Shown one piece after another: positions 15,774 through 19,876 of a stretch of DNA of 35,173 nt. Source of the stretch: Bacteroidia bacterium (GTDB lineage: Bacteria > Bacteroidota > Bacteroidia > Flavobacteriales > Flavobacteriaceae); the NCBI GenBank assembly GCA_030429455.1, contig JAUIFC010000019.1:1-35173 (forward strand), written 5' to 3'. The notes under the pieces are model-generated. The model did no database searches. It worked only from the letters and a program-made list of their open reading frames with translations, and was not told the DNA's origin. The position numbers were made by a program, and so were the translations under genes. Within the stretch, counting starts at the first letter, position 1. Every line of letters begins with the position of its first letter.

Positions 15774-16070
15774 ATGTCTAAAATAGAAGAACAATCCAAA
15801 GAGAAAAACGAAGGGGAAATCAGGTATTTGACCCCTCTTGATATAGAAACTAAAAGTAAAAAACGCTATTGCAGATTTAAAAGAGCTGGCATAAAATATG
15901 TTGACTACAAAAACTCTGATTTTTTGCTAGAATTTGTAAACGAGCAAGGCAAAATTTTGCCAAGACGATTAACTGGTACATCTTTAAAATACCAGAGAAA
16001 AGTTGCTCAGGCTGTAAAAAGAGCAAGACACTTAGCATTAATGCCATATGTTGGCGATTTACTTAAATAA
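15774..16070 (+). CDS. rpsR: 30S ribosomal protein bS18
   Basis: A 98-residue basic protein. The family core is clear: [19 protein letters not shown], then [20 protein letters not shown] and [20 protein letters not shown]. It partners bS6 on the 30S platform. The N-terminal 18 residues are a charged extension relative to many bacterial S18 proteins. It lies 3 nt after rpsF and 12 nt before rplI. Confidence 0.96.
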
Positions 16071-16082
16071 AAAACTACTCAC

Positions 16083-16532
16083 ATGGAATTGATATTAAAA
16101 AAAGATGTTGATAATTTAGGTTTTGCTGACGATGTAGTAACTGTAAAAAATGGATATGGCCGTAACTTCCTTATTCCACAAGGTTATGCCATTCTTGCCA
16201 CAGATTCAGCAAAAAAAGTATTGGCTGAAAACCTTAGACAACGAGCACATAAAGAAGCTCAAGCCGTAAACGATGCAAAAGAAGAAGCTTCAAAATTGGA
16301 TGCTTTAGAATTAAAAATTCCTGCAAAAGCTGGTGCTGCAGACAAACTATTTGGAAGTATCTCCAATGCAGATTTAGCAGATGCCCTAGCTGGAAAAGGA
16401 GTTGAAATAGACAAAAAATTCATTTCGATACTTGGTGGAAATATTAAAAGATTAGGTCAATACCAAGCTAAAATAAGATTTCACAGAGAAGTGATATCTA
16501 ATTTCAGTTTTGACGTTATCGCCGAAGCTTAA
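16083..16532 (+). CDS. rplI: 50S ribosomal protein bL9
   Basis: A 149-residue protein with the N-terminal L9 signature LGFADDVVTVKNGYGRNFLIP, a long connecting helix rich in Ala/Lys/Glu (about 45-80), and a C-terminal 23S rRNA-binding domain beginning near DKLFGSIS. It stabilises the L1 stalk base and spacing of ribosomes on mRNA. It is the last gene of the operon and is followed after 22 nt by a terminator. Confidence 0.96.
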   Translation: MELILKKDVDNLGFADDVVTVKNGYGRNFLIPQGYAILATDSAKKVLAENLRQRAHKEAQAVNDAKEEASKLDALELKIPAKAGAADKLFGSISNADLADALAGKGVEIDKKFISILGGNIKRLGQYQAKIRFHREVISNFSFDVIAEA

Positions 16533-16554
16533 ATTACACATCATATAACATATT

Positions 16555-16580
16555 AAAACCCGCCAATAGCGGGTTTTTTT
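16555..16580 (+). terminator. Rho-independent terminator of the rpsF-rpsR-rplI operon
   Basis: AAAACCCGC (16555-16563) pairs perfectly with GCGGGTTTT (16569-16577) around a 5-nt loop, and the T run continues to 16580. Confidence 0.9.
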
Positions 16581-16702
16581 GATTTTAAAAAATAACAAAG
16601 GCCATAGGCAATTATATTCTTATTTTATTGTTAACATAAAATAACTAAATAACTTAAATTATATTATTAAGTTTACCAAATTCTAAAAACACGAAACTAG
16701 CA

Positions 16703-17893
16703 ATCAAAAATACGACAGAAATAGATCGGCTAAAAGCGCTCAGAGCCCTTGACATTCTTGACACTCAACCAGAGAAAGAGTACGATGAGCTTACATCGCT
16801 TGCGGCCTATATTTGCAATACGCCAGTATCTCTCATAAGCCTTGTTGACGAAGACAGACAGTGGTTTAAATCCAAAATAGGTATACAGTCCTCCCAAACA
16901 AATCGAAATCATTCCTTTTGTTCTCACGCCATTGAAAGCTCTTCCAGTATTTATGAAATTGAAGATGCTTCGAAGCACCCGATATTCAAAGACAATCCAC
17001 ATGTCGTTGACAAAGGCCTTAGATTTTATGCTGGAGCGCCTTTAGCACTAGAAAGCGGTCATGTTCTCGGTACTATTTGCGTAATTGACTTTATACCAAA
17101 AAAACTTACTGAAGAACAGAAAAAAGCCTTAAAAAACCTTGCCAATCAAGTGGTTAAATTGTTAGAACTAAGATTTAAGCATAAAAATTTGATTGAAACT
17201 CAAAAACATCTTAAAGAAAAAAATGTGCAACTGCGCAATTTCGCAGGTGTCGTTTCTCATGATATGAAAATGCCTTTGGCCAATATCATAGTAACGATAG
17301 ACCTATTAAAAAATAAGTATAAAGACAATCTTGATGATGCTGGTTTTCAATACTTAAACAACTTGAAGCAATCTGCTTTTAAAATGAGCGATTACATCAG
17401 CAACATCTTGATGCACTACGAAAGTGACAATCTTACTCAAACCGAATTGAAAGAGTATGTAGATGTTCATGAGTTACTCGAAAACATTATCGAATTAATT
17501 GATGTACATGACAATTGTGACATCAATCTTCCTGAAACAAATAAAATTATCCATTGTAACAAAGTAGCGCTTGAACAAATCTTCCTTAATCTAATAGGTA
17601 ATAGCCTAAAATACAACGACAAGGAAAGCATCATCGTCGATTTGGATTTTTTCGAAAGCGATACGCACTACTTCTTTAGCGTAAAAGACAATGGGATTGG
17701 GATAGAAAAAGATAAGCAAAAAGAAATTTTCAAATTATTCACCACCGTTGCAGAACAAGACAGAAAAGGTCAAAAAGGTAATGGAATCGGGTTATCTACG
17801 GTAAAAAAACTCATAAACAACTTGGGAGGCAAAATCAAGGTCGACTCGGAGAAAGGAATATTTACAAAGTTTACATTTAGCATCGAAAAATAA
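16703..17893 (+). CDS. GAF-domain sensor histidine kinase with no canonical start codon
   Basis: From 16658 to 17893 one frame encodes an intact soluble kinase. The GAF part (about 16721-17150) has the family pattern: LKALRALDILDTQPE, then ISLVDEDRQWFKSKIG, HSFCSHAI, LRFYAGAPL and LGTICVIDF. The kinase part has the phospho-acceptor His (codon 17258) in GVVSHDMKMPLANI, N box LNLIGNSLKYND, G1 DNGIG and G2 GNGIGLS. An in-frame TAA is at 16655-16657, and between it and the GTG at 17150 the frame holds no ATG, GTG or TTG. The coordinate given uses the ATC at 16703, which would yield a normal N-terminus (KNTTEIDRLKAL); ATT at 16658 is another option. Starting at 17150 would discard the whole GAF domain. 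No response regulator adjoins it. It could be an allele with a lost start. Confidence 0.75.
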   Translation: MKNTTEIDRLKALRALDILDTQPEKEYDELTSLAAYICNTPVSLISLVDEDRQWFKSKIGIQSSQTNRNHSFCSHAIESSSSIYEIEDASKHPIFKDNPHVVDKGLRFYAGAPLALESGHVLGTICVIDFIPKKLTEEQKKALKNLANQVVKLLELRFKHKNLIETQKHLKEKNVQLRNFAGVVSHDMKMPLANIIVTIDLLKNKYKDNLDDAGFQYLNNLKQSAFKMSDYISNILMHYESDNLTQTELKEYVDVHELLENIIELIDVHDNCDINLPETNKIIHCNKVALEQIFLNLIGNSLKYNDKESIIVDLDFFESDTHYFFSVKDNGIGIEKDKQKEIFKLFTTVAEQDRKGQKGNGIGLSTVKKLINNLGGKIKVDSEKGIFTKFTFSIEK

Positions 17894-17926
17894 GCTAAAG
17901 TATTCCCTAAACGATAAGCACTGTAT

Positions 17927-17934
17927 TATATTTG
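17927..17934 (+). promoter_or_regulatory. -7 element for the BatA-like gene cluster
   Basis: TATATTTG matches TAnnTTTG and lies 19 nt before the ATG at 17954; no correctly spaced -33 TTG is visible. It would drive the closely packed genes from 17954 to 22103. Confidence 0.45.
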
Positions 17935-17953
17935 TTTTGTTTTAAAAAATAAT

Positions 17954-19876
17954 ATGAGGTTTATTCATCCTGAAATTCTTTATGCCTTATTTGCCTTAAT
18001 CATTCCCATTGTTGTTCATCTATTTCAACTAAGGCGATTCAAAACGGAGGATTTCACCAATGTTGCTTTACTTCAAAAACTCGTAATTTCATCAAGAAAA
18101 AGTTCTCAACTTAAAAAATGGCTTACGCTATTGACAAGATTACTCTTATTATCTTGCGTCATACTTGCTTTTGCACAGCCGTATTTCCCAAACGAAGTAG
18201 AGCGTGAAGACGAAAAAGAGCTCAGTATTTTTTTAGACAACTCCTACAGCATGTCTTTAAAGGGCGAAAAAGGAGAACTGTTTCTTAGAGCAAAAGAAGA
18301 CCTTTTGGAATATTTGCCAGAAAACGAAAAATTCCATTTATCAACGCACTCTGACAACTATCGAGATTTGACCAAAAAAGAACTAAAATCAATTATATTC
18401 GATTTAGGATATACTTCAAACTCATTAGATTTCAATAGTTTGCAAACAAAAAGCATCAGTAGTTTTCAGACAAATGTTTCGACTAAAAAAAATGTTGTAG
18501 TGCTTTCTGATTTTCAGAATTCGCAAATTCAAAATAAAGTAGATAGTCTTCAGAATGTTGATTTTCATTACATTAAATACAATCCCGTAAATACTTTTAA
18601 TTTTAGCATTGATACACTTTTTGTAAAAAACTCAAACAATGGAAAGCAATTGGTTTTTAATGTAAAATCTTCAAATCCAACAAATTCTTCCTTGCCAATT
18701 TCAATTTTTGACGATAACAAATTACTAGGTAAACTGACGTTAAAGTTTGAAAATGAAAAAGAGAAGACCTATGAATTTAATATTGCTGACGGCGAAATTA
18801 AAAATGGAAAAATCGTAATTGAAGATTCGGGATTACACTATGACAATACCTTTTACTTTAGCATTTCTAATCCCGAACCTGTAAATATTCTCATCATTTC
18901 CAAAAGCTATTCCGAGTATTTTGATCGGATTTACAAAAGCGACAAGTTTAATTACAAACAAGTCTTGGTGAAAAATCTGGAATACACCGACATATCGAGC
19001 AATGCTGTGATTCTATTAAATGAACTTGACGAAATACCTGATGCGCTAAGTGTTAGCATCGAAAATGCATATAAAGCCGATAAAGTTATCGGTATTATTC
19101 CGAGTGAAAATTCAAATATTATGGGTTACAATAGGATTTTCAAGACACTTGATTTAAACAGATATAACTCAAAAATCGATCAAGAAATCAAACTTACAAA
19201 TATTAATTTTAGTCATCCATTATTCGAGAATGTGTTTACCGACAAAGTCGAAAATTTTGATTACCCAACATTTGACAGCTATTTTGAAAGCACATCGAAC
19301 AATAAGGCATTGTCCTTTAGCAATGGGTTCTCTTTTTTAGAATTAAATGGAAAATCATTCAGATTTAATGCGCCCATTGAAAATAATTCTAATTTTAAAC
19401 AATCGCCTTTAATTGTTGTAAGCTTTTATAATTTAGCCTTGCAAGCGCAAACGAGTCGGAATCTGTTTTTCACCACTGGACAGAACCAAACAATTTCTAT
19501 AAAAACCACATTGAAAAATGATGAAGTTTTAAAAATTGAAAAAAACAACGACGTTTACATTCCAAGGCAACAGCCATCAGGAGAGAATGTGAATTTAACA
19601 CTGATCGATTTTCCAAGTCTTGCCGGACATTATGTTGTGAAAAATTCTGAAAATGATACTTTGCAACATTTGGCTTACAATTATGACAGAACAGAAAGTC
19701 TGTTGGAGTATCAAAATATGGATAATAAGACTTATGCTAAGGTCTATAATAATTTCAATGATTTTTCTGAATACTTCAATAGCAACTATAAAATAAATTC
19801 CAAATGGCAATGGTTTATTGCCTTTGCCTTGATGTTTATGATTATTGAGTTACTTTTGCTAAGATTTATAAAATAA
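17954..19876 (+). CDS. BatA-domain/vWA membrane protein
   Basis: A 640-residue protein beginning with the BatA N-terminal double-membrane domain (TIGR02226 type): MRFIHPEILYALFALIIPIV, a basic QLRRFKTEDFTN segment, and a second helix (about 57-75). A von Willebrand A-like region follows, with the metal-site motif DNSYS (Asp95, Ser97, Ser99). Residues about 200-610 are a long extracytoplasmic beta-rich part. A final helix (about 618-637) anchors the C-terminus. It resembles Bacteroidetes proteins often annotated as aerotolerance-related, although no MoxR or BatB-E genes are here. It is followed 6 nt later by the dihydroorotase-like gene. The physiological role is unknown. Confidence 0.82.
   Translation: MRFIHPEILYALFALIIPIVVHLFQLRRFKTEDFTNVALLQKLVISSRKSSQLKKWLTLLTRLLLLSCVILAFAQPYFPNEVEREDEKELSIFLDNSYSMSLKGEKGELFLRAKEDLLEYLPENEKFHLSTHSDNYRDLTKKELKSIIFDLGYTSNSLDFNSLQTKSISSFQTNVSTKKNVVVLSDFQNSQIQNKVDSLQNVDFHYIKYNPVNTFNFSIDTLFVKNSNNGKQLVFNVKSSNPTNSSLPISIFDDNKLLGKLTLKFENEKEKTYEFNIADGEIKNGKIVIEDSGLHYDNTFYFSISNPEPVNILIISKSYSEYFDRIYKSDKFNYKQVLVKNLEYTDISSNAVILLNELDEIPDALSVSIENAYKADKVIGIIPSENSNIMGYNRIFKTLDLNRYNSKIDQEIKLTNINFSHPLFENVFTDKVENFDYPTFDSYFESTSNNKALSFSNGFSFLELNGKSFRFNAPIENNSNFKQSPLIVVSFYNLALQAQTSRNLFFTTGQNQTISIKTTLKNDEVLKIEKNNDVYIPRQQPSGENVNLTLIDFPSLAGHYVVKNSENDTLQHLAYNYDRTESLLEYQNMDNKTYAKVYNNFNDFSEYFNSNYKINSKWQWFIAFALMFMIIELLLLRFIK

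Follow-up and report, generated by a model that had tools for sequence, protein, structure and literature searches.

The kinase gene next to rplI

The window, by which we mean the whole stretch of 35,173 nucleotides analysed here, comes from a draft genome (310 contigs, 4.13 Mb, 86% complete) and carries on its forward strand an open frame for a GAF-histidine kinase (16658 to 17893, stop included), which follows an in-frame TAA at 16655 and extends over 411 sense codons (16658 to 17890) to the stop at 17891 to 17893. Three Pfam domains are encoded in this single frame and phase: GAF (PF01590, 16775 to 17152, E 1.9e-9, 38.6 bits versus a cut-off of 22.4), HisKA (PF00512, 17231 to 17410, E 5.8e-9, 36.3 bits) and HATPase_c (PF02518, 17561 to 17884, E 7.2e-23, 81.6 bits), the latter two likewise above their Pfam cut-offs and with their motifs visible in the alignment, VSHDMKMPL, which we take to be the H box of HisKA, and NSLKYND, DNGIGI and GNGIGLS, presumably those of HATPase_c. 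The preliminary description of this locus as an intact GAF-histidine kinase is thus confirmed. Upstream, on the same strand, lies a gene (16083 to 16532) that from its sequence we take to be rplI (bL9), followed by an intrinsic terminator (16555 to 16577, forward strand) with a 9 bp stem and a T tail, and downstream lies a gene whose 640-aa product carries a double-transmembrane domain (TIGR02226) at its N-terminus.

This gene order is shared with the relatives. The rplI gene is the upstream neighbour of the kinase in the window and in all four nearest relatives (L064 to L067), and the 640-aa protein is encoded directly downstream in three of these (L065 to L067), synteny that identifies the window gene as an orthologue of the rplI-locus kinase. 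In the fourth (L064/L003, genome G017), a 434-aa gene separates the kinase from the 640-aa protein, the two being neighbours in the other three. One example of close likeness is the rplI-locus kinase of Mesohalobacter halotolerans (L032, L004), with the same domain order, rplI upstream and the 640-aa protein downstream, and with 72% identity to the window kinase over 391 residues; however, it possesses an ATG and an upstream TAnnTTGC box, and the window gene possesses neither. No second copy of the kinase gene was found in its own genome. By domain content and gene order, the window gene is an ordinary GAF-HisKA-HATPase_c kinase of the rplI locus with an altered initiation region.

The alteration concerns, in the first place, the start codon. 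As had been noted, the frame lacks a canonical start: the first in-frame ATG, GTG or TTG after the TAA at 16655 is the GTG at 17150 to 17152 (forward strand), 164 codons further on and at the very end of the GAF domain, where it is read as an internal valine codon. The absence of a frameshift stands as well, no ATG being present in any frame between the rplI stop at 16532 and 16703 (by eye). An upstream start joined to the frame by a frameshift was considered and rejected, as the sole TTG (16628) runs into a stop after three codons and no ATG occurs from 16533 to 16703.

Start codons and upstream regions of the orthologues

The genus search covered 27 genomes, the own genome and 26 others, and an orthologue was found in 25 of the 26, at 56 to 73% identity; the remaining genome (G018, 52% complete) gave matches to the kinase domains only. 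In each of the 25 genus orthologues an ATG precedes a conserved leucine (the one following a conserved arginine, RLxAL), at a distance, by alignment, of 11 codons in 11 of the 25, 13 codons in another 11 and 12 codons in one, the leucine anchor being mis-set for L020 and L023 (19 and 9 codons). In other genera the start lies exactly 13 codons before the leucine in 46 of 58 rows, these rows being undeduplicated (the pair L105/L147, with two rows each, is the same DNA) and free of hits that scored below 330 bits or began after query residue 60. For the family's other genera, represented by 56 distinct rows, the start picked was ATG in 35, TTG in 14 and GTG in 7, so that weaker codons account for 21 of 56, with the GTG picks of L106 and L137 doubtful, an ATG being in range too; for prokaryotes at large, proportions of about 80% AUG, 12% GUG and 8% UUG are given (PMC9845219). 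The pick was the canonical codon nearest to 13, any within 8 to 25 codons before the leucine being accepted, which makes the figure of 56 of 56 weaker than that of 46 of 58, and the same rule takes a neighbouring TTG in two of the 25 genus sequences, each with an ATG as well. With these limits, no relative without a canonical codon in the start region was found among the 25 genus orthologues or the 56 outside rows. Loci L112 to L119 (at most 45% identity) were examined for the upstream box only, and L116 could not be judged there.

Counting 13, 12 and 11 codons back from the corresponding leucine (16730), the window has ACG 16691, AAA 16694 and CTA 16697. The ACG (16691 to 16693, forward strand), at the commonest start position of the family and one of the two tied commonest in the genus, is one transition away from ATG, and in global alignment it falls at the position of the ATG, counted back from the leucine, in L004 and L005. 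Other alignments put the old ATG near 16675 or 16698, in our reading out of frame, the leader being poorly conserved. A change of ATG to ACG at 16691 would be the simplest reading of these alignments, and no proof of it. The ATC at 16703 to 16705 (forward strand), which had been proposed as a start giving a family-typical N-terminus, is only 9 codons before the leucine, at odds with the 11 or 13 codons that prevail in the orthologues, whose ATGs mostly match the positions of CTA 16697 and ACG 16691 rather than 16703. As to the other genes of the window, for 10 of the 12 compared the first residue of the relative aligns with the window's own ATG, and for the remaining two (7599 and 11665) the listed relative frame begins slightly elsewhere.

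Candidate codons were also ranked by their upstream context, with 100 clear ATG starts from their own genome as the reference, a sample with a weak signal that serves only to order the candidates. The near-cognate ATA at 16721 to 16723 (forward strand), a start at which would still yield the whole GAF domain, has the best context (92nd percentile), followed by ACG 16712 (62nd) and ACG 16691 (52nd). Contexts are poor for ATA 16661 (5th percentile), ATC 16703 (2nd, below 98 of the 100 starts) and ATT 16658 (1st), the last being another start suggested in the preliminary description and, on this measure, as badly placed as the ATC. The ACG at 16691 has an A at -3, -6, -12 and -13, the positions named for Flavobacterium johnsoniae in PMC6847099; none of the 25 genus orthologues has this four-A context, and 14 of them have one A.

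The same ranking bears on a possible GAF-less kinase started at GTG 17150, a codon that does recommend itself as the first canonical start-type codon in the frame, with HisKA and HATPase_c both retained downstream. However, its context lies below those of 98 of the 100 ATG starts (2nd percentile), GTG is just one of the valine codons used at this column (9 of 26 sequences), and the GAF half, which would drift if it were no longer made, does not. We consider this proposal, also made earlier, highly improbable.

The alteration is not limited to the start codon. All 25 genus relatives (L003 to L027) possess a TAnnTTGC box at -21 to -51 from the ATG, resembling the -7 element of the phylum, TANNTTTG (PMC6847099), and we call it only promoter-like because it is one T shorter. 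The window has neither this box nor an upstream ATG. Within the window's spacer no site scores above 0.9 bits, a value reached by 368 of 1000 simulated spacers, versus 9.6 to 21.1 bits in the relatives (leave-one-out scores for 22 of the 25, three having been dropped because the cut-out was too short). The commoner TAnnTTTG form, which occurs within 80 nt upstream of 9 of the 21 other window genes, is found neither in the 70 nt before 16658 nor, by eye, in 16658 to 16690. Outside the genus, 20 of 29 loci have no TAnnTTG or TAnnTTTG within 60 nt of the start, so a missing box alone does not mean silence. The wider motif reaches at least 10 bits at only two places in the window, and TAnnTTGC may be a gene-specific site.

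The spacer between rplI and the kinase is 158 nt in the window, 41 nt longer than the 116 to 117 nt of L003 to L005. Its first part, at 16598 to 16634 (forward strand), is still similar by local alignment to that of the relatives, the score being equalled by 1 of 500 shuffles for L003 and 15 of 500 for L005, and by 296 of 500, not significantly, for L004. The likeness to L003 and L005 runs up to a GTTAA at 16630 to 16634, where the relatives continue into ATTGC, the leader and the ATG. The AT-rich segment that follows in the window (16635 to 16690, forward strand) has no clear counterpart in alignments, and in its place the three nearest relatives have the remaining half of the TAnnTTGC box, then 13 nt of leader and the ATG. 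Besides itself, its best match among those listed from the 27 genus genomes has an E of 5e-4 and covers 36 AT-rich bases, and the absence of a good match there led us to discard a mobile or repeated upstream segment. A structured leader was discarded too, three stretches folding no better than shuffles, and no Rfam family matched at the gathering score within 16000 to 18000. Inverted repeats of 12 nt (11 of 12 matching) flank the spacer at 16573 to 16584 and 16702 to 16713, and inversion would set a TTG 14 codons before the leucine, as if an invertible segment with promoter and start had been caught in its OFF orientation. However, 33 of 200 simulated spacers contain a repeat of this kind, and L003 and L005 align with the spacer as assembled and not with its inverted form. 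Phase variation through an invertible start cassette is on these grounds scarcely credible and was rejected.

Coding constraint and the rarity of start-free frames

The coding part of the gene, in contrast to its initiation region, appears untouched. The other 25 orthologues have 120 invariant columns, of which the window kinase keeps 119 (36 of 37 in the GAF half and 83 of 83 in the kinase half), and the ratio of branch lengths between the window and its sister L067, on a fixed tree, is 1.10 for the GAF part and 0.95 for the kinase part, versus 0.85 to 7.25 for seven other genes of the locus; dN/dS was not used, fourfold sites being near saturation. No stops, frameshifts or relaxed constraint were seen in the coding part, and thus the decay typical of a pseudogene is not found; relaxed selection was sought in both the invariant columns and the branch ratios and rejected. 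To the limit of these tests, the frame is under selection, and from the one change in 120 columns we would estimate, roughly, that any neutral period amounts to at most about 0.02 substitutions per site. Constraint as intact as this implies that the start was lost very recently, or that the gene is still made, or that the sequence is wrong, and the three options originally put forward, a non-AUG start, a lost ATG and an error, were in our judgement the right ones.

How unusual the frame is within its own genome was assessed by a codon-usage scan of the window and 40 further stretches (423 kb), comprising 235 coding frames of at least 120 codons closed on both sides. Only four of them begin with at least 30 start-free codons: the kinase (164 codons, the longest), a frame on contig C286 (78), infC (41) and one more (30). 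The 78-codon case lies below an in-frame stop and the 30-codon case has an upstream part that scores as non-coding, so that the kinase and infC are the only ones of the 235 whose long start-free 5' end has no other evident cause. Being the longest such end among these frames, the missing start of the kinase is beyond chance. A similar picture is presented by 300 kb of genome G006, in which two of 171 frames have at least 30 start-free codons, one of them being infC. As to the frame on C286 (L150, G000:C286, 6451 to 6927, minus strand), there and upstream a protein frame with hydrophobic stretches near its N-terminus is interrupted by an in-frame TAA, past which an open frame without a start continues, and it looks like a broken gene.

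These results also bear on the possibility that the draft is at fault and the start only seems to be missing, through an incorrect base, a consensus of mixed strains or a misassembly local to 16635 to 16693. The assembly is indeed fragmented and incomplete, one wrong base would be enough to hide a start, and if the gene works and the sequence is in error, conservation of the whole frame is exactly what one would expect. However, a single wrong base does not account for both the missing box and the 41 additional nucleotides of spacer, the other window genes compared are undamaged, and the 423 kb showed just one other broken-looking frame, the one with the in-frame stop. We regard an artefact as unlikely, if far from negligible; should it be one, the locus would illustrate what can become of a single altered 5' end in automatic annotation.

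Possible weak initiation or recent loss of the start

The infC gene, which encodes the translation factor IF3 and is known for its AUU or AUA start, serves as an inner control. No ATG, GTG or TTG precedes the conserved block in any of the 25 genus loci read by motif search, out of 27 (L037 to L063, with L052 and L063 not read), and in the window's own genome the likely start, judging from alignment and the known infC case, is ATT AGA AGA AGA. Over the genus as a whole, members of the Mesohalobacter subgroup seem to start infC with ATT, and most of the others with ATA. Neither this feature of infC nor the loss of the promoter-like box kept throughout the genus had been part of the preliminary description. 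The kinase resembles infC in the absence of a usual start at its 5' end; however, in infC this absence recurs across the genus, and for the kinase it is confined to one genome.

It is possible, if somewhat doubtful, that the kinase is likewise a working gene, read from a non-canonical codon, of which ACG 16691 and ATA 16721 are the best placed, and transcribed from a promoter that we did not recognise. Consistent with this are the GAF half, as conserved as the kinase half, the A residues at the four positions before ACG 16691 and the favourable context of ATA 16721, the presence in the same genome of an infC read by alignment from ATT, and the TTG or GTG starts in other genera (21 of 56 rows, two of them doubtful), which suggest that weak starts are tolerated for this kinase. 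A precedent is presented by sigR of Streptomyces, also a signalling gene, whose GTC start is repressed by IF3 (PMC5472188). By analogy, initiation on the kinase message would be weak and restrained by IF3, so that the kinase might rise when IF3 falls, as with infC and sigR. The sigR start, however, was demonstrated by experiment (N-terminus, stop-codon and start-codon mutants; PMC5472188), and for the kinase the sign of such a start is the absence of a usual codon from the sequence.

Several observations weigh against such a start. A canonical codon is indeed absent from the possible N-terminus, but the trait is not kept in relatives, as all 25 genus orthologues have an ATG and in every relative judged the start region includes an ATG, GTG or TTG. 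At its central base ACG does not pair with the initiator, and in Escherichia coli it is a very weak start; its context at 16691 scores at the median, and the four-A pattern has no parallel among the orthologues. Among the literature matches listed, as judged from titles and the openings of abstracts, no natural bacterial ACG start stood out, most of these matches concerning organelles, viruses or engineering, and no report joined a noncanonical start codon with a bacterial histidine kinase, which leaves absence from print unproven. The more specific proposal, that the kinase start has moved outside ATG, GTG and TTG, to ACG 16691 or AUA 16721, with the amount of product set by IF3 and the stringency of initiation, seems to us rather doubtful. 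If such a start were used, the kinase would add to the bacterial signalling genes that begin at a non-canonical codon, this time in a phylum naturally without Shine-Dalgarno sites (PMC6847099), and would test how far initiation in this phylum depends on the codon.

The best reading, in our opinion, and still a tentative one, is an allele that has recently lost its start or become strongly attenuated. An open frame kept without a start is what the gene shares with start-loss alleles and young pseudogenes, although the kinase shows no other decay yet. The start and the box are absent, as found by genus alignment and box scoring, and the frame is intact and constrained; we favour loss of the start because all 25 genus orthologues have both ATG and box, no second copy was found in the genome, the starts of 10 of the 12 other window genes compared align with a relative's and the coding part is intact. 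The upstream region would have been remodelled and the ATG lost, in the simplest form by an ATG-to-ACG change at 16691, with the kinase then silent or made only at trace level via near-cognate initiation. We think that the change is real, that the loss is recent on this lineage and that output is low, each of these being an inference. If so, the kinase would have been caught at the moment of silencing. Several points speak against start loss. With coding constraint untouched, silencing must, on this reading, be very recent. The unmatched upstream segment looks like the product of slow divergence and not of a newly inserted piece, and this would suit a working gene that has been rewired better than silencing. 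The box is also lacking at most of the loci examined outside the genus. Finally, it is uncertain from the alignments which codon matches the old ATG.

A further observation concerns the weak starts in other genera. Eight of the 14 TTG-start copies outside the genus (L093, L094, L096, L101, L122, L124, L127 and L130) have an AGGAG within 20 nt upstream, and none of the 35 ATG or the 7 GTG copies outside the genus, nor any of the 25 within it, has one. The copies with both AGGAG and TTG are related to one another, hence not independent, and a Shine-Dalgarno-like site accompanying a weak start is odd in a phylum naturally without such sites.
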